64,000 nucleotides of DNA, taken from NCBI RefSeq assembly GCF_037076425.1, contig NZ_AP028127.1, positions 2,353,501 through 2,417,500 on the forward strand, given 5' to 3'. Under the pieces are notes generated by a model that was not told where the DNA came from, ran no database searches, and worked only from the letters and a program-made list of their open reading frames with translations. Numbering within the stretch: the first letter of the stretch is position 1; every line of letters begins with the position of its first letter. The DNA comes from Turicibacter faecis. GTDB taxonomy: Bacteria > Bacillota_I > Bacilli_A > MOL361 > Turicibacteraceae. Of this stretch, positions 3,786-13,017 are shown piece after piece. The position numbers and the translations under genes were made by a program.

Positions 3786-3811
3786 AGTACCGAAAGGTGG
3801 GATTTATTAAG

Positions 3812-5137
3812 ATGTCTTTAACAAATAAGCAGTTAACACTCAAATCATTTTTGGTTTTTACATTCCCAACGATGATTATGATGATTTTTTTATCACTTTA
3901 TACGATTATCGACGGGGTCTTTGTCTCACGAGTTGTCGGACAAAATGCCCTATCCGCGATTAATATCTTTTTACCCTTATGGGTTGCCCTCAACGGGATT
4001 GCTGTCATGTTCGCCACGGGGGGAAGTGCCATTGTGGCGAAAAACTTTGGGGAAGGGAAACCTGAACAAGCTAAGCAACATTTTTCATTAATCGTAGCTG
4101 TTACCCTTGCAATTGGTCTCTTTTTAATGCTTCTTCAGTTACTCTTTCTCCCAAAACTTTTACGATTATTAGGAGCTACTGACAATATTTACGAACATGC
4201 TTATGCTTATGGAACGATTTTAACTATTTTTATGCCGACTACTATGTTGAAATCACTCTTTGATTACTTCATGGTTACTGCTAATCAACCGAAACGTGGT
4301 CTCTTTTATACGGTAATCGGTGGTGTGACAAACATTATTTTAGACTACCTTTTTATCGTTGTCTTTAAGATAGGAATTGCAGGGGCCGCCCTAGCTACCG
4401 CCATTGGTCTATTAGTTCCTGCAATCTTAGGTTTCATTTATTTTATGAATCAAACAAACTACCTCCACTTCACTAAACCGAAGTTAGAGTGGTCGATTAT
4501 CTTAAAAAGTATGGGAAATGGTTCTTCTGAAATGGTCACGAATCTTTCAAGTTCTGTCACAACCTTACTTTTCAATTTAGCCATGCTTCATTATCTTGGC
4601 GAGAAAGGGGTAGCTGCGATTACCATTGTTTTATACGCTCAATTTTTCTTAATGTCCGCTTACCTTGGATTTTCATCTGGTGCTGCCCCACTCATTAGTT
4701 TCAACTACGGTGAAAATAACCATGAAAATCTAAGAAAACTGATTCGTTATAGTTACCGAATTCTAATGGTTGCCTCCGTAGCAACGTTTGCCCTTGCCCT
4801 CATTCTTGCTTCGCCACTGATTAAACTATTTACGGGCGGAAAGAATGAACTTTATCACTTAACCTTGATCGGATTCAATTTATTTGCGATTAGTTTTCTA
4901 CCCGTTGGTTTAAATATCTTTACCTCTGCCATGTTTACTGCCTTTTCAAATGGGAAAATCTCAGCCTTTATTTCTATTTTAAGAACCTTAATTCTTGTCT
5001 TAGTTGGAATCATCCTGCTTCCAACCCTCCTAGGGGTTTACGGTGTATGGCTCACCATTCCATTTTCAGAGGCTGTGACCCTTATTTTTTCACTTTTATT
5101 AATGAAGCGCTATGGGAACTATTATCACTATGCTTAA
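3812..5137 (+). CDS. MATE-family multidrug efflux transporter (MepA-like)
   Basis: Integral membrane cation/drug antiporter, about 441 residues with around 12 hydrophobic segments. Features typical of MepA-like MATE proteins include the early FTFPTMIMMIFLSLYTIIDG segment and the internal two-fold repeat. The ATG at 3812 (MSLTNKQ) is preferred over the GTG at 3797; AGGTGG lies upstream at workable spacing. It is transcribed from a MerR-type promoter and paired with the divergent MerR/GyrI regulator, which suggests drug-inducible efflux. A strong terminator follows. Confidence 0.88.
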   Translation: MSLTNKQLTLKSFLVFTFPTMIMMIFLSLYTIIDGVFVSRVVGQNALSAINIFLPLWVALNGIAVMFATGGSAIVAKNFGEGKPEQAKQHFSLIVAVTLAIGLFLMLLQLLFLPKLLRLLGATDNIYEHAYAYGTILTIFMPTTMLKSLFDYFMVTANQPKRGLFYTVIGGVTNIILDYLFIVVFKIGIAGAALATAIGLLVPAILGFIYFMNQTNYLHFTKPKLEWSIILKSMGNGSSEMVTNLSSSVTTLLFNLAMLHYLGEKGVAAITIVLYAQFFLMSAYLGFSSGAAPLISFNYGENNHENLRKLIRYSYRILMVASVATFALALILASPLIKLFTGGKNELYHLTLIGFNLFAISFLPVGLNIFTSAMFTAFSNGKISAFISILRTLILVLVGIILLPTLLGVYGVWLTIPFSEAVTLIFSLLLMKRYGNYYHYA

Positions 5138-5178: not shown

Positions 5179-5658
5179 TTATTCAAAATCTAAATACTCC
5201 ACGTACACATACCCAGTTTGTCCTTCAAAAGAGATTTGTACCCATTCATCATTATAATATCGATTTAAGACGGTTACTTCATCTCCCGCATCAAGATTTC
5301 CGATAATGTCGGTCCCTGTTGCCGCTTCACTACGGACGTTAACGCCGTCAATATTACAATAAGCAACGGAATGATCTGTTTCTTTATCTTCAGTTGGCGT
5401 AGCAGGCGTTTCACCTTCAGAATTTGCTGCCGAATTTTGATCCGATGATTCTTGGTTTACCTGATTTTTATCTTGGCCCTCATCATAAACAATAAATTCA
5501 TTCTCAGCCTCTGGTTGCTCATACGTTGCCGCCATTACCCCGGTATACATAATAAGTCCAGCCCCTAGTGCCGTTAATAACCCAATAAATGAGACCCCAA
5601 TTCGTTGCGTCCATGAAATGACTTGTTCATTCGATTTTGATTTTTTCTTTGGTTGCAT
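5179..5658 (-). CDS. Membrane-anchored bacterial SH3-domain protein
   Basis: Single-pass envelope protein of 159 residues. Layout: short basic N-terminus (PKKKSKS), membrane helix (about 18-40), low-complexity acidic Gln/Glu/Asp/Thr linker (about 45-90), then one SH3b domain (about 95-158) with INVRS-type features (VNVRSEAATGTDIIG, GYVYVEYLDF). SH3b domains usually bind peptidoglycan. Start chosen at ATG 5658 because GAGGAGG lies 6 bases upstream; an in-frame extension to 5694 lacks support. No catalytic domain is present, so it may be a sensor or scaffold at the wall. Confidence 0.8.
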   Translation of the reverse strand: MQPKKKSKSNEQVISWTQRIGVSFIGLLTALGAGLIMYTGVMAATYEQPEAENEFIVYDEGQDKNQVNQESSDQNSAANSEGETPATPTEDKETDHSVAYCNIDGVNVRSEAATGTDIIGNLDAGDEVTVLNRYYNDEWVQISFEGQTGYVYVEYLDFE

Positions 5659-5760
5659 GATAACCCTCCTCATTAACACTTGTAAAAATATCACTAAATC
5701 GATCGAGAATTATATTATTATAACTAATCATATCATATTTTTGTAGAATAATGATGTAAT

Positions 5761-5776
5761 TTCAGCTGACATTATC
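5761..5776 (-). promoter_or_regulatory. Recurrent motif (AATGTCAGCTGAAA) upstream of SH3 gene
   Basis: The minus strand reads GATAATGTCAGCTGAA about 100 bases upstream of the SH3 gene's start. Near matches occur at 6714-6729, 10486-10500 and 15461-15478. Function is unknown; it may be an operator. Confidence 0.3.
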
Positions 5777-5783
5777 AGCCATT

Positions 5784-5827
5784 AAAAAATCTCTTCACCG
5801 CTTAACGCAAGGAGAAGAGATTTTTTT
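5784..5827 (-). terminator. Terminator of the 5833-6624 gene
   Basis: An AAAAATCTCTTC / GAAGAGATTTTTTT stem with a 17-nt loop lies directly after the stop codon of the minus-strand gene. Confidence 0.8.
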
Positions 5828-5832
5828 CTTGA

Positions 5833-6624
5833 TTAATAAGCCGAAAAATACTCCGTCGCCGGACGATTACCTACGCCATCTGCCGTTAAAATATGTTCGA
5901 AACGGCCATTTGGTGCCTCAACAACGATTTTTAAATTAGGAATTCCACCCGAAATATAACATTTTAAAGACACCACATCATGCTCATCTGCTATATATTT
6001 TTCAAAGACGATGCCATCTTCTACTAAATCACCCTCTTCAAATTTCAGTTGATAAATCTTAACTCGTGAACCTACCTCGTTTGGAACAATAATCACATGT
6101 TCTTCGACAAGATTTTCGCGATATTCAGCTACATTTAACTGTTGAAGTGCTGATAACTGTGCCGAAGAAGGTCGATGAATAATCGCACCTAGGTGATTTG
6201 CGTTCATTTGTAGTCCTAATAAGTGAGCAGCTGATGGGTCGCTCACAGTAGGCGTCTCTTCTACTGTCGCTTCAGGTTCTTTTACCTCATTTATCTGTGG
6301 GGGTGTCTGCTCTTCAACCGTTGGTTGTGGGATTACTTGTTCCGTTGACGGTTCAACAACCCCCGATTCCATGGACTGATTTTCCTCATTAACATTAGCC
6401 TCATCTTCCTCTGGCTTAACGTCTAACGTCGCGCGTTGAAGAACTTTAAACTCTTTGGCCTCTAGTAACACCGGTTCTACGGACTGATCCTTTGCCTTGG
6501 CTTGCGCAGACTCTATTTTTACCGTCAATAACGACGCACAAAGTGCGACAGCTGTTACACCTGCTAGTGATAATCCAATTTGAAGCCCCCTTGATTTAAC
6601 AACTTGATACATCTTTCTTCCCAT
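5833..6624 (-). CDS. Membrane-anchored protein with unnamed C-terminal domain (paralogue of 9764-10384)
   Basis: I do not recognise this 263-residue protein by name. It has a cytoplasmic basic start (MGRKMYQVVKSR), a membrane helix or signal anchor (about 15-37), a long Glu/Pro/Thr/Val-rich stalk (about 45-135) and a globular C-terminal domain of about 120 residues. That domain is clearly shared with the lipoprotein at 9764-10384: LGAIIH.P, QL..L, a VPNEVGS..KIY / IPKEVGT..AIY strand, GIPNLK and a DG.G.R...EY ending. Start ATG 6624 follows GGGAGG at 9 bases. It lies downstream of the ECF anti-sigma gene but is separated by a terminator and has its own -10 (TATAAT near 6691). Confidence 0.6.
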   Translation of the reverse strand: MGRKMYQVVKSRGLQIGLSLAGVTAVALCASLLTVKIESAQAKAKDQSVEPVLLEAKEFKVLQRATLDVKPEEDEANVNEENQSMESGVVEPSTEQVIPQPTVEEQTPPQINEVKEPEATVEETPTVSDPSAAHLLGLQMNANHLGAIIHRPSSAQLSALQQLNVAEYRENLVEEHVIIVPNEVGSRVKIYQLKFEEGDLVEDGIVFEKYIADEHDVVSLKCYISGGIPNLKIVVEAPNGRFEHILTADGVGNRPATEYFSAY

Positions 6625-6713
6625 CTTCACATTCCTCCCATATCGTTCATTTAAAATCATCTCGTGCCCCATGATTTAACTTTCGATTAATTATAACAAA
6701 TTTCTTTAACTTT

Positions 6714-6729
6714 TTTAACTGACATTATC
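6714..6729 (-). promoter_or_regulatory. Recurrent motif (AATGTCAGTTAAAA) upstream of 5833-6624
   Basis: The minus strand reads GATAATGTCAGTTAAA about 90-105 bases upstream of the start, followed by a sigma-A-like promoter (TTAAAA, 17 bp, TATAAT). It shares GATAATGTCAG with the motif at 5761-5776. Confidence 0.3.
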
Positions 6730-6735
6730 CCCCAG

Positions 6736-6765
6736 AAAAAAAAGACCCCTAACAATCAGGAGTCC
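6736..6765 (-). terminator. Terminator after the anti-sigma gene
   Basis: On the minus strand AGGACTCC and GGGGTCTTTTTTTT pair around a TGATTGTTA loop just past the stop codon of the anti-sigma gene. It closes the sigma/anti-sigma operon. Confidence 0.75.
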
Positions 6766-6781
6766 TATCAGATTTCACTTT

Positions 6782-8233
6782 TTATTTTAAGGGTACTCTT
6801 AAACACCATGGTGCCACCTCTTCATTTGTTTCGGGCATCAGAGGCAGAGCTATTGTATACATTTTGTTAGTGTCAATGGCGTCTAATTTAATTTGATAAA
6901 TTCCTTGTGATTCGTCTTTGGGGGCAACAATTAATTGTCCTTCGCGCGCTGCATAATCGTTCATTGTTTCATCAAATAAGACAAGACGCGCTAAATTACG
7001 TTCCGAATAAGTCGATGGTATTTTTACAGTGACAACAACCTCATCATTTTGTAATTCCACATTTTCAATCGTGACCTTCTCTGTTGAATTAACCCAAACT
7101 TCATCAGAGATGTATTCCGTTAACGGTTTAAATTCTGTCGGTAATTGACCGTTAATATAATACGTCACGTCATCCAATCCATATCCTGCTGCTAGTTCTT
7201 GTTCGTTTGGTAAACGTGTAACTTTCTCATATTCATCCGAAAAGATAGGCTTATTCGGTGTCTGATATATTTCATACGTCCAACCATCGACCTGAACATG
7301 GCGAGCAATTTCCTCTCTTGGATAAAGTTCTAGCCATTCCAGTCCATCCATATCTGAATCTACCCTTAAGCGCCCTGAATATTCTTTGGATTTCTCATCG
7401 AAATTTTCTGAAATAAATGTAGGCTCGTAAATATATCCGTTTGATCCCCTTACAACTAATTGATCTAACTGATAGCGAACCTCGTTAACAGTTTGCCCTT
7501 TAACCTCCAATTCAAATGTTGTAGCAAGCGAACTTTTCATCAATCGATTAAGTGAGATAGATGTATCCTCATACGCTGTCTTGACATTAGGGTGAAACTC
7601 TTCCGTTCCTTCCAATTTTGCAACCTTAAATTTAAAGTCCCATTTCCCTTCTATAAAGTTATATCCACGCGCAATTCGATTGACTCCTAATTCAATCATC
7701 ACTTCATCCTTTAAATTAATAGTTGAAAGATCCGCCTCAATAATAATTGCTCCCGTTTTTTCATCAATTTTTCGTACCCGGAAGGCATTCATTGCCTCAG
7801 GAATCCTATGATTCACACGTAAACGATAATCTAAATTGAAAAAATCATTCTCATTTAATCCCTCATACCCCTTCAAAAACTCACTTTCTACCGTTAACGC
7901 CATAAGAAGAAGATTATCGTCTAATACAACTTCTTCTACCGTAATCACCAAATCTTTATCTGTCATTGACTCGCCAATCTCCGTTGCTACCTTTTGAAAT
8001 TTTTCGGTTGTCCCCCCAAATAAATACCCTGAAAATTCATTAAAAGACTCGCCAATTTCTTTTAAAGCATTAATAATCGGTGGTTGGTTAAGCCCAACTC
8101 CTCCAACTAAACAAAGACTCGCCACTATTGGGACCACTTTCTTAGACTTTATCCCTCCCTTATTTTTCTTCATCTCCTGGTTAGCCCGTTCTATTCCTTT
8201 AATCACTGCTTCTTCATACATTTTTGAATTCAT
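6782..8233 (-). CDS. DUF4179-type membrane anti-sigma factor
   Basis: Predicted regulator of the ECF sigma factor encoded directly upstream. The short cytoplasmic N-terminus (about 30 residues) would hold the sigma factor. One membrane helix follows (about 32-50, VVPIVASLCLVGGVGL), then a DUF4179 segment and a long extracytoplasmic region rich in beta strands, for a total of 483 residues. Start ATG 8233 is preferred: the stop of the sigma gene (TAA 8237-8235) is one base away and AAGGAGG inside the sigma gene sits 8 bases upstream, implying translational coupling. An ATG at 8242 overlaps that ribosome site. The large outer domain suggests it senses an envelope signal. Confidence 0.8.
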   Translation of the reverse strand: MNSKMYEEAVIKGIERANQEMKKNKGGIKSKKVVPIVASLCLVGGVGLNQPPIINALKEIGESFNEFSGYLFGGTTEKFQKVATEIGESMTDKDLVITVEEVVLDDNLLLMALTVESEFLKGYEGLNENDFFNLDYRLRVNHRIPEAMNAFRVRKIDEKTGAIIIEADLSTINLKDEVMIELGVNRIARGYNFIEGKWDFKFKVAKLEGTEEFHPNVKTAYEDTSISLNRLMKSSLATTFELEVKGQTVNEVRYQLDQLVVRGSNGYIYEPTFISENFDEKSKEYSGRLRVDSDMDGLEWLELYPREEIARHVQVDGWTYEIYQTPNKPIFSDEYEKVTRLPNEQELAAGYGLDDVTYYINGQLPTEFKPLTEYISDEVWVNSTEKVTIENVELQNDEVVVTVKIPSTYSERNLARLVLFDETMNDYAAREGQLIVAPKDESQGIYQIKLDAIDTNKMYTIALPLMPETNEEVAPWCLRVPLK

Positions 8234-8234
8234 C

Positions 8235-8777
8235 TTAGACATCCTCCTTCAACATCGTCTCAAGTGCTTTTTTCCCTCTTCTTAAATGACTTTTTACTGT
8301 ATTCGGCTTTAGTTGAAGCCGAATAGAAATATCCTCAATACTTAAGTCTTCAAAATAATGCATCTTAATCACTGACTGATAATCTGGACGTAATTTTTGA
8401 ATGGCTCGATTCAAATCCATCCGTTCTTCAATTAGGCATCCCTTAGAGGGGGCCTCAAGGTCCTCACCCAACTCATTTAACTCCACCTTGTGCCAAAGAT
8501 TCATCGCTAAATTAATTAAAATCCTTGTCATCCATGTTTTAAAATACTTCGGTTCCTTTAATTGATGGATATTCAAAAGCCCTCGATAGGCTAACTCCTG
8601 AATTAAATCCATCACATCTTGCTCATTTTTCACATATCGATAAGCCATCTGAATGAAATAGTTCTCGTAACGTCTCATTAACTCCAAAAAAGCCAAATCG
8701 TCCTTTTTCATCGCGCGCTTAACTAATTGAACCTCTGATAATTGACTGTACCGTTGCTCCCACCTAAAAATCTTCAT
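8235..8777 (-). CDS. ECF-family RNA polymerase sigma factor
   Basis: 180-residue extracytoplasmic-function sigma factor. Region 2 spans about residues 24-90 (DDLAFLELMRRYENYFIQMA, then YRYVKNEQDVMDLIQELAYR). Region 4 spans about 122-175, with IEDISIRLQLKPNTVKSHLR as the -35-recognising HTH. GGAGG lies 5 bases before the ATG. It forms a two-gene operon with the anti-sigma factor and is preceded by a TGCAACC-type element that looks like an ECF autoregulatory promoter. The usual DxxQE motif reads DLIQE. Confidence 0.92.
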   Translation of the reverse strand: MKIFRWEQRYSQLSEVQLVKRAMKKDDLAFLELMRRYENYFIQMAYRYVKNEQDVMDLIQELAYRGLLNIHQLKEPKYFKTWMTRILINLAMNLWHKVELNELGEDLEAPSKGCLIEERMDLNRAIQKLRPDYQSVIKMHYFEDLSIEDISIRLQLKPNTVKSHLRRGKKALETMLKEDV

Positions 8778-8818
8778 TTCATCCTCCTTATCTTCCGACC
8801 TTTGTCCTCACTCTCTTA

Positions 8819-8845
8819 GAGTCTATCTCCCTCTAAAAGGTTGCA
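8819..8845 (-). promoter_or_regulatory. Candidate ECF-sigma autoregulatory promoter
   Basis: The minus strand shows TGCAACC (8845-8839), a 15-bp spacer and GACTC (8823-8819), about 40-65 bases upstream of the sigma start codon. ECF promoters in Bacilli commonly have an AAC-containing -35 and a short -10. The assignment is inferred from position and motif. Confidence 0.5.
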
Positions 8846-8967
8846 AAAATATTGTTCTTCATCGAAAATTTATCCTCATGAATATAAATTTTTTAAAATC
8901 AAATCCTATTAAGGGTTATTCTATCAATCAAGCACCCTATTTTTCCATAACTTAAGGAGATTATCTT

Positions 8968-9444
8968 ATGAATTATTCAATTGTTTACAGTAGCGTCACA
9001 GGTAACACCGCAAAATTGGCTGAGGCAATCAACAATCACCTAGGAGCGAGTTATGTTGGAAAGCCCTCGAATGAGGCATTAAATGCAGACGTCATCTTTG
9101 TTGGATTTTGGGCAACTAAAAATTCATGTTCAGCTGATATCCAGGCCTTTATCGAAAAGCTTACTAACAAAAAAGTATTCATCTTTGGAACCGTAGGTTA
9201 TGATAATACCGACGCTTATTTTGAAGAAATTTTAAATAATGTAAAAGCACTTGTTCCCGCTTCTAATACCATTATCGGTGCCTATGCTTGCCAAGGAAAA
9301 GTTTCAGAAAAAAAACAAGAACAGCTCCGAGAAGCCGTCCCTGAAAAATACGAGGCGATTAAAAATAATTTAGCCGAATCCGTCCATCACCCTAACGAAA
9401 AAGATATCGACGGACTCTTATCTGCGGTAAAAGCGGCGATTTAA
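8968..9444 (+). CDS. Flavodoxin-family electron carrier
   Basis: Short-chain flavodoxin-like protein of 158 residues. The N-terminal FMN-phosphate loop YSSVTGNTAKLAEAI follows the first beta strand, and VGFWATKNSC and FGTVGYDN match the later flavin-contact loops. AAGGAG precedes the ATG by 8 bases. It stands alone, with a strong terminator, and is divergent from the ECF operon, so no partner enzyme can be inferred from context. It resembles the flavodoxin-type proteins annotated next to some gut reductases, but nothing here supports a specific pathway. Confidence 0.85.
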   Translation: MNYSIVYSSVTGNTAKLAEAINNHLGASYVGKPSNEALNADVIFVGFWATKNSCSADIQAFIEKLTNKKVFIFGTVGYDNTDAYFEEILNNVKALVPASNTIIGAYACQGKVSEKKQEQLREAVPEKYEAIKNNLAESVHHPNEKDIDGLLSAVKAAI

Positions 9445-9447
9445 AAC

Positions 9448-9497
9448 CAATGAAAAAAGAGGTTATTGTTTTAAAATAATAACCTCTTTTTTCATTG
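9448..9497. terminator. Strong terminator after flavodoxin gene
   Basis: A nearly perfect 20-bp stem (CAATGAAAAAAGAGGTTATT and its complement) closes over a short loop. Confidence 0.9.
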
Positions 9498-9763
9498 ATA
9501 CACCTTTTTAAACGTTAAAGCTATGAACAAAGGTCTATAATAGGCAAACTCCCTATTAAAAAATTAGTTGGACCGGTTTCCTAAACGCTCATTTTATCCC
9601 CATACATGTTCTGGATTTAAAGCATGTCGTTCAAATAAGTAAATAAGTGAGAATAATAAATGAAATCCATCCGTTCAATTAGTCCCTGCAAACGGTCTTT
9701 ATCCATTAACTCATCACATGCTCCCTCACCCTATGAGGAATTTTTTTATACAAGCACCGAAGT
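9498..9763. other. Intergenic region with a possible coding remnant
   Basis: No convincing gene. The minus strand holds a short open frame (about 9656-9745) that would encode MDKDRLQGLIERMDFIYYSH and a few more residues. It has no good ribosome site and no partner; it may be a gene fragment. Confidence 0.3.
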
Positions 9764-10384
9764 CTATTCCCCACTTACCTCTAAATATTCAACCTGTGCT
9801 CGGTCTCCCCGACCATCATAAGTCATCAAATACTCCACCTTTTTCTCTTTATATTCCATCACGACTTTTAGATTAGGAATCCCTTCTGGAACTCGGCTTC
9901 GAACATCTATCACCTGAAACTGTTCAATTACCATTTCATTAAAAACTGGCTCCTCATCAATAAAACGCTCTCCATCATACCAAGTCGAGTAAATCGCAAC
10001 CGTTGTTCCAACTTCTTTTGGTATAATTAAAAGACGATCACTCCATCCTTCTTCTTCATAGAGCAACACTTCTAATGAATCAAGTTGGGCTAATTGCTCT
10101 ACTGTTGGCTCATGAATAATGGCTCCGAGTTGATCCTCTGACATCGTCAGGTGGAAAGCATCGACGGCAGAATTAATCGTTGCCTCTACCGGACATTCAA
10201 TCGATAATTTGATATCCTCTTTTTCGACAAAAACTCCATCTGTTTCAATCGGTGATTGGTTAGAATCATAGGCCACACTCTCCTCCGGTGTCAAAGGAGT
10301 TTCTATGATTTCCTCATTCCCATCCACCGAATGACAACCTACCAATAGTGTCATTAAAAACAAAAGCGCTCCCCACTTTTTCAT
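9764..10384 (-). CDS. Lipoprotein with unnamed domain shared with 5833-6624
   Basis: 206-residue predicted lipoprotein. The signal peptide ends in the lipobox LLVGC (cysteine at about residue 17). An acidic linker follows, then a C-terminal domain of about 120 residues homologous to that of the protein at 5833-6624: QLGAIIHEP, QLAQLDSL, IIPKEVGTTVAIY, EGIPNLKVVMEY and a DGRGDRAQVEYLE end. Start ATG 10384 follows GGGAGGGAGAGG. The two paralogues differ only in how they are anchored, and they lie on either side of the sigma operon and flavodoxin. Function unknown. Confidence 0.65.
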   Translation of the reverse strand: MKKWGALLFLMTLLVGCHSVDGNEEIIETPLTPEESVAYDSNQSPIETDGVFVEKEDIKLSIECPVEATINSAVDAFHLTMSEDQLGAIIHEPTVEQLAQLDSLEVLLYEEEGWSDRLLIIPKEVGTTVAIYSTWYDGERFIDEEPVFNEMVIEQFQVIDVRSRVPEGIPNLKVVMEYKEKKVEYLMTYDGRGDRAQVEYLEVSGE

Positions 10385-10758: not shown

Positions 10759-10773
10759 ATGGAGTTTTTATAT

Positions 10774-11682
10774 ATGAGAAAAACCTCTTCCTTAAAACTA
10801 GCTTTTACCTCACTGATTTCTACTTTATTAATCTGCCTATCTGGTTGTGAGGGGACGACGTCAACAAACGGGCCCCAATTAAATACAAAAGCTAATTTAA
10901 GTCCTGCTCCATTAACCATTGACATACTTGCAACAGGAAAATCCGATTGCATCATCATTCAAATACAAGATAAAACAGTAATGATTGATACAGGACTAGA
11001 TGAAAATGGAGAAACAATTACCGATTTTTTAAAAAAAGAAAACATTGATACGATTGATTACCTTATTATCTCTCATCTCGATAAAGATCACATCGGAGGT
11101 GCAGATATTATCTTAGATGAAGGCATCGAGGTGCAAAACGTCATTCAACCGAACTATTCGCGGGATACAAAACAACATAAAGAATACGTAAAGGCCCTTG
11201 AAAAACACGACATTAAGCCGACCCTTCTAACAAGTGATACAGTACTTGAAGTAAATGGCGCAACCATTATTGTTTCCGCTCCGCTAAGAGAGGAATACGA
11301 ACAATCAAACGACTATTCTTTAATTACCTCTCTCTCATATAAAAATCAGAGTTTTTTATTTGCTGGAGACGCTGAGGCCATTCGAATAAGTGAATTCCTT
11401 GCTTCTAATCCTCATGCTTACACCTTATTAAAGGTGCCTCATCACGGAAAATACAGTGACAATCTAGAAGAACTATTACAAATGACAACTCCTGATTATG
11501 GCATCATTACGTGCTCAGAAGATGAATATCCGGATCAAAAGGTCCTTGATCTTTTAACAAAATATCAAGTTCAAACATTACTCACAAGTGATGGTCCAAT
11601 TATTATACGAAGTGATGGTCAACAAATTACGGTTAATCAACAACTCACTTCAACACTTTCCCTTAAACAAAAAGGAGACTAA
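10774..11682 (+). CDS. Secreted metallo-beta-lactamase-fold lipoprotein (ComEC C-terminal-like)
   Basis: 302-residue lipoprotein. The signal sequence ends in LSGC (cysteine near residue 26). A metallo-beta-lactamase fold follows, of the kind found in the ComEC/Rec2 C-terminus: VMIDTGLD, the metal site HLDKDHIGG (about residues 105-113), LFAGDAE and KVPHHGKYSDN. Stand-alone secreted versions of this domain may be nucleases or phosphodiesterases acting outside the cell. Start ATG 10774 has ATGGAG 9 bases upstream and places the lipobox correctly. It is convergent with the next gene and shares its terminator. Confidence 0.85.
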   Translation: MRKTSSLKLAFTSLISTLLICLSGCEGTTSTNGPQLNTKANLSPAPLTIDILATGKSDCIIIQIQDKTVMIDTGLDENGETITDFLKKENIDTIDYLIISHLDKDHIGGADIILDEGIEVQNVIQPNYSRDTKQHKEYVKALEKHDIKPTLLTSDTVLEVNGATIIVSAPLREEYEQSNDYSLITSLSYKNQSFLFAGDAEAIRISEFLASNPHAYTLLKVPHHGKYSDNLEELLQMTTPDYGIITCSEDEYPDQKVLDLLTKYQVQTLLTSDGPIIIRSDGQQITVNQQLTSTLSLKQKGD

Positions 11683-11699
11683 CTTTAGTCTCCTTTTTT
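11669..11699. terminator. Bidirectional terminator overlapping both stop codons
   Basis: AAAAAGGAGACTAA / TTAGTCTCCTTTTTT stem. It includes the ends of both convergent genes. Confidence 0.85.
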
Positions 11700-12350
11700 C
11701 TGTTCAATTTTTTCAATAAGCTGAGAAACATCATTTTTTATCTTTTTAGAAGATTCTAATAACTCATTGGCTACAGACTTAACCTCTTCATTATCCGTTT
11801 GCGTTAAAACATTATTAATTAAAATCATCCAAACATCGCATTGTTGCATCACACGATGCAAGTAATCCTCATCTACACTCTTACCTATTAAGGTAGTCGG
11901 CTGTTCTGCACCTTCCGATTTAAGCGCAACTAAAATTTGTTGATAAACTTCCTCATAACTAGATAGGTAGGTAGCTTCCTTCTTCTCATCATAAACTAAC
12001 TGTTGATGAACCTTTTTTTGAGTTTGATTAATTTTATTAATATTAGATTTCAATTCGTGAGTGATGTCATTCACGGATTTTTTTATTTTATTTCGTTCTC
12101 CATGTTCTAACTGATTTTTTGATAATGCAATGAGTCCACGTTGATGATTCAACATCTGATTTAAAAAATCGGCGTTTAAATCACCCATTTTTTCCTTGGC
12201 GCTTAAGCTATTTTGCATCTGTAAGTAAATAAGATCGACCTTTTTCAAATAATCTTGCTGTTTTAAACTTACGCCATCATTAGCAAACACGGTTATGGAT
12301 AAAAAGAAAAATGAGAAACACACCAATAACGAATATTTAAACCATTTCAT
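11685..12350 (-). CDS. Secreted helical protein of unknown function
   Basis: 221 residues with a classical signal peptide (KWFKYSLLVCFSFFFLSITV, then FAND), followed by an almost entirely alpha-helical, Gln/Lys/Asn-rich body with heptad character. I do not recognise a family. No cysteine pair or catalytic motif stands out, so it could be an extracellular coiled-coil or binding protein. Start ATG 12350 has AAGGTGG 7 bases upstream. It stands alone. Confidence 0.6.
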   Translation of the reverse strand: MKWFKYSLLVCFSFFFLSITVFANDGVSLKQQDYLKKVDLIYLQMQNSLSAKEKMGDLNADFLNQMLNHQRGLIALSKNQLEHGERNKIKKSVNDITHELKSNINKINQTQKKVHQQLVYDEKKEATYLSSYEEVYQQILVALKSEGAEQPTTLIGKSVDEDYLHRVMQQCDVWMILINNVLTQTDNEEVKSVANELLESSKKIKNDVSQLIEKIEQKKGD

Positions 12351-13017
12351 CTTATCACCACCTTCTTCATGATTCATTTCTTCCTTAGTATTCGGTTTTT
12401 AATCATTCTTTATGTAACGGTTTTAAAGAGGAAAAGTTGTCGAACTCCACTTGTATAATTTAACATTTTTCTCATTAAAAGTTAGCTATACTTAAACTAC
12501 TGCAAAATCGAATCTTTTTAATTTCCCAACAACTTCAATACAACATATAGACAAGTTAAATTTTAATCGATAGTTTTATTCTATAAATATAATCTATTGA
12601 TAGAATAATTTTATAAATTACCTATTGGAAAAAAGTATTTTTTAAGTTTAATAATAAAATATTATAAAATTAGTATTATTGTTTTTTTAAAATAGTCATA
12701 CCATTTTCATGAAAATGGATCATCCAATGAGTTAAAAAAAGGTTAAAAGAAGATAAATAAATTCAATTTAGCGCGGAACTATTTAAAAAGAGAGCACAAA
12801 TAGAGGAAAGAAGAAGTAAAAAAAAGCAGAGTAACTCCGAAAATCGTCTCTTTTGAATAACGTTAAAAGAACATCTGGAGAAATCACGATTAAAAAGTGT
12901 TTAAATTAATCTTCTCGTCCAATTTAGAAAGAGGAAATAAGGAAAGACTATTCAAAAAAAAGAAGATATTTTATAATAAGACTTAGAAAAACAAAACCTA
13001 TTAGGAGTTGAAAGATA
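12351..13017. other. AT-rich intergenic region
   Basis: About 670 bases with no convincing open frame. It contains an 18-bp perfect palindrome CCATTTTCATGAAAATGG (12701-12718) and an inverted repeat TTATTCTAT / ATAGAATAA around 12572-12612. A TTGTCGAA motif occurs at 12437-12444. It presumably holds promoters for the divergent flanking genes. Confidence 0.5.

Follow-up and report, generated by a model that had tools for sequence, protein, structure and literature searches.

To our knowledge, the envelope proteins of Turicibacter, a host-associated gut genus, are mostly unnamed. The described systems closest to the locus presented here are bacterial envelope proteins with an SH3 (SH3_3) domain, the C2, YEATS and Ig-like beta-sandwich folds of the PDB, and ECF sigma factors paired with RsiV-type anti-sigma factors. 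One anti-sigma factor with DUF4179 is RsiV, a protein that signal peptidase cleaves in the presence of lysozyme (PMC6066255). In the window, namely the whole stretch of 64,000 nucleotides analysed, two envelope proteins, termed A and B, share a C-terminal domain (Table 1). The locus was compared among five Turicibacter genomes, those of the window species, its sister G002, and G001, G003 and G004. A resembles the neighbouring SH3_3 protein in its acidic stalk, and the two promoters are homologous; where the SH3 domain would stand, however, A has the new domain. The anti-sigma factor, a neighbour of A, also contains a DUF4179 segment (44.7 bits against a cut-off of 30.1) and differs from the RsiV type in that its C-terminal part has no other Pfam match. 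We propose that A combines the promoter and anchor of an SH3 gene with a copied lipoprotein domain, which would act as a binding module between membrane and wall, and we put the probability of this whole explanation at about 60%. If so, it can be traced at this locus how a copied domain, joined to a promoter and an anchor, gave rise to a new surface protein.

Table 1. Features of the locus, in window positions
Feature	Position	Strand	Remark
SH3b (SH3_3) protein with N-terminal hydrophobic anchor	5179..5658	-	conserved beside B; suggested source of the promoter and N-terminus of A
Sigma-A-like promoter of the SH3 gene (ATTACA-17-TATGAT)	5732..5760	-	
GATAATGTCAG element upstream of the SH3 promoter	5766..5776	-	identical in G001 and G004; altered in G002 and G003
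Protein A, with a hydrophobic anchor or signal at the N-terminus, a Pro/Glu stalk and the shared domain at the C-terminus	5833..6624	-	orthologue in G002 only
Shared domain, copy in A	5845..6234	-	BLASTP alignment; dN/dS 0.11 against G002
Sigma-A-like promoter of A (TTAAAA-17-TATAAT)	6690..6718	-	
GATAATGTCAG element upstream of the A promoter	6719..6729	-	
Intrinsic terminator downstream of the anti-sigma gene, before A	6742..6766	-	
Anti-sigma factor with DUF4179	6782..8242	-	adjacent, outside the conserved unit
ECF sigma factor	8235..8777	-	adjacent, outside the conserved unit
Conserved autoregulatory ECF promoter, TGCAACCTTTT-N13-CTCTAA	8816..8845	-	sole site in the genome
Protein B: lipoprotein, C-terminal shared domain	9764..10384	-	an orthologue in each of the five Turicibacter genomes
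Shared domain, copy in B	9782..10171	-	BLASTP alignment; AlphaFold model an all-beta sandwich

Sequence analysis revealed that the C-terminal 130 residues of A and B align by BLASTP with 45 identities (35%) and no gap (92 bits, E 4e-27). This bears out the earlier note, which had described the domain as common to two differently attached envelope proteins; all the motifs it cited are present, and the gene starts it chose (6624 and 10384) are likely right, both being preceded by good Shine-Dalgarno sites and the A orthologue of G002 starting at the same place. B possesses an N-terminal signal with the lipobox LLVGC, and comparable lipoboxes were found in the alignment of G001, G003 and G004. 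In A, a hydrophobic stretch of roughly 20 residues is followed by a signal-peptidase-like site, AQA-K; to judge from these residues, A could be either membrane-anchored or secreted. A search of the window's own genome, which is complete (2.43 Mb), yielded exactly two copies of the domain, those of A and B. The domain had not been recognised as a named family, and it proved undescribed in every library searched: no family in Pfam, NCBIfam or PHROGs covers it above the curated cut-off, with sub-cutoff matches falling on other regions only, and PDB sequences contain no relative of it. PADLOC gave a weak match for B (E 3.8e-4). Between the window and G002, dN/dS is 0.11 for the domain of A and 0.05 for the C-terminal 55 codons of B, within a range of 0.05-0.17 across the A, B and SH3 genes. 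Thus, both domain copies are maintained under purifying selection.

Structure prediction, which had been suggested as a check, gave a confident model of the B domain as an all-beta sandwich (AlphaFold, mean pLDDT 89.5) with no clear counterpart in the PDB. The best Foldseek E value against the PDB was 0.027, and VIA returned Z scores of about 5 (at most 5.4) for mixed folds that are tied with one another, none standing out. A BFVD search likewise gave no confident structural match. As modelled, the domain has a beta-sandwich architecture like that of the C2, YEATS and Ig-like folds, through matches that are weak and tied, and no sequence relation to them. Residues conserved in the Turicibacter alignment comprise one His, a GIP motif, a Lys, a DG.G.R motif and a Glu, among which no catalytic motif is recognisable. 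Given this type of fold and the absence of catalytic motifs, the domain may be a non-enzymatic binding or scaffold module at the membrane-wall interface, a role to which we give roughly even odds.

In a search of 100 relatives, the domain was confined to the five Turicibacter genomes, being absent from three genomes of other genera in the same family. Scanning genome contigs with a single sequence gave no domain match; with an alignment, a match was obtained in Turicibacter sp. UBA7094 only. Plasmids and phages contained no match, and 392 genomes across the phylum yielded only marginal further ones. Judged by clear sequence matches, which are restricted to Turicibacter, the domain is apparently confined to the genus, and a genus-wide lipoprotein family is now available for naming. 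Two of the marginal matches were rejected as chance, one to an aminopeptidase-type protein (G323) and one set running across stops (G398). A lipoprotein of G335, with relatives in G389 and G467, was retained as a possible distant relative. These unnamed Erysipelotrichia lipoproteins (L042, L054, L055) share with the Turicibacter proteins the C-terminal position of the domain and IPN...DG motifs, and the AlphaFold models of the two domains show nine strands in the same order. However, the sequence link is weak (HMM E 3.8e-4 in one genome; hhalign P 0.0023, probability 12.6%), the model of the Erysipelotrichia domain has a pLDDT of only 75, and the Erysipelotrichia profile, used as query in turn, recovered no Turicibacter protein. 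No confident structural match in the PDB was found for the Erysipelotrichia model. It is plausible that the two domains are distantly homologous.

Gene order in the five genomes points to the origin of A. In G001, G003 and G004, B lies directly upstream of the SH3 gene (SH3_3 at E 2e-14 in Pfam) on the same strand, uninterrupted and with no ECF pair; on the other side of B are an esterase gene and, further on, a gene for a ComEC-like lipoprotein with a metallo-beta-lactamase fold. In the window and G002, where A occurs exclusively, A, the ECF operon and a flavodoxin gene (8968-9444) are placed between B and the SH3 gene; the sigma, anti-sigma, flavodoxin and SH3 genes are all placed as the earlier note has it. 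The region upstream of A aligns with SH3 promoters, at best scores of 48 and 54 against that of G004, which none of 500 dinucleotide shuffles reached, and the regions upstream of B and of the sigma gene have no comparable match to SH3 promoters. For the SH3 gene of G003, no significant promoter match to A was obtained. On these alignments, the promoter of A is homologous to that of the SH3 gene. Among 46 hydrophobic N-termini, that of the window SH3 protein is the best match to the A N-terminus, although the hhalign P is no better than 0.005. The score between the G002 A N-terminus and the window SH3 protein was reached by 12 of 2000 pattern-preserving shuffles; for the window A N-terminus the resemblance is weak (572 of 2000).

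These comparisons enable us to propose a putative path for the formation of A, which, as read from the sequences, is probably chimeric. Initially, the shared domain would have belonged to lipoprotein B, encoded beside the gene for an SH3b protein of wall-binding type in the genus genomes examined. The B-SH3 region would then have been tandemly duplicated in the lineage leading to the window species and G002. Afterwards, a deletion with one end within the first SH3 copy and the other within the second B copy would have joined the promoter and anchor segment of SH3 to the part of B that encodes the C-terminal domain, yielding A. Such a duplication and deletion would produce the exact order B, A, SH3 on one strand. 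Finally, the ECF operon and the flavodoxin gene would have come to lie between, transcribed separately. As a result, the domain would be delivered in two ways, by the lipid tether of B and by the N-terminal hydrophobic segment and Pro/Glu stalk of A. A phylogenetic tree gave no date for the duplication.

The resemblance of the two promoters could also reflect present regulation, with A and SH3 co-regulated by a transcription factor that binds GATAATGTCAG, the element then having a function beyond being a remnant of the duplication. Both sigma-A-like promoters have the element immediately upstream, it is mostly conserved across the five species, and the window SH3 copy is part of an inverted repeat, GCTGA-N5-TCAGC. 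However, of the four GATAATGTCAG sites in the genome, one is at A, one is at SH3 and two are inside coding genes; no further intergenic copy was found, so there is no wider regulon, and the element was rejected as the mark of one because the other sites inspected fall within genes. The extended pattern occurs once in each of G001 and G004, at the SH3 promoter. Shared ancestry of the whole promoter accounts for the element, and both explanations can be true; we regard co-regulation as unlikely, though worth keeping in mind.

To the earlier note, A, B and the ECF operon looked like an envelope-stress module. In such a module, the sigma factor would drive A and B, and the shared domain would sense or repair envelope damage. 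Indeed, A and B flank the operon in the window, as in G002, whose contig stops within B, and RsiV-like anti-sigma factors with DUF4179 react to attack on the envelope (PMC6066255). However, this linkage of domain and ECF pair is found in two of the five genomes, those closest to each other, and the neighbours of the domain genes in G001, G003 and G004 do not include the pair; by the earlier note's own test, the module is thus unsupported. The ECF orthologues of G003 (43% identity) and G004 (64%, with in-frame stops) map to an unrelated pcp/DUF624 locus, roughly 1 Mb away from B; in G001, the sigma factor has no more than a distant match (38%) and the anti-sigma factor none. The pattern TGCAACYTTTT-N13-STCTAA upstream of the sigma gene is common to four species and occurs exactly once per genome, always at the sigma operon; TGCAACYTTTTN12-14STCTAA is absent upstream of A, B and SH3. 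Furthermore, a terminator follows the anti-sigma gene, and A has a sigma-A-like promoter of its own. We therefore consider the module improbable. Since only the window species and G002 have the linkage, a functional link specific to that lineage may exist. The ECF pair itself may well be an envelope-stress switch, by analogy with RsiV; the stress-response genes between A and B probably only came to be neighbours later on. The locus also shows that a position beside an ECF operon may be misleading, as the regulatory link here fails when the genomes are compared. Literature searches returned nothing on Turicibacter ECF sigma factors or on these lipoproteins. In G004, the sigma and anti-sigma genes (L039, 6200-8242) look like decaying pseudogenes.

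We likewise hold it improbable that the domain represents a novel type of envelope-binding module, carried on two tethers in one sublineage, which the DUF4179 ECF switch monitors or controls with no consensus ECF promoter. Equally improbable is the entry of the ECF operon and A into the B-SH3 locus in one piece, as a mobile or recombining cassette from another lineage: the ECF orthologues of G003 and G004 do lie at a different locus, and dS between the window and G002 rises from 0.01 at the MATE gene to about 1 from SH3 through B, but the high dS is common to SH3 and B, so that its boundary is better read as recent exchange over the MATE part, the open reading frames at the edges include no integrase gene, and the promoter of A derives from an SH3 gene.

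The dS boundary itself is sharp, separating window positions 3797-5137 from 5179-10384, with values of 0.01 for the MATE gene, 0.05 for MerR and about 0.8-1.9 from SH3 through B, which suggests recent recombination over the MATE side. The flavodoxin is close to BilS (NCBIfam NF045594, 144.8 bits against a cut-off of 155); a second copy is located at G000:C1:1157484, and G003 and G004 have none. The ComEC-like lipoprotein with a metallo-beta-lactamase fold, at 10759-11682 in the window, is encoded near B in four genomes, the G002 contig ending too early to tell; it has a sub-cutoff blaAHM match (283 of 590 bits) and an LmuA-like PADLOC match. Next to it, a DUF305 protein (11685-12377) weakly similar to CopM metallochaperones is kept at the locus in congeners.
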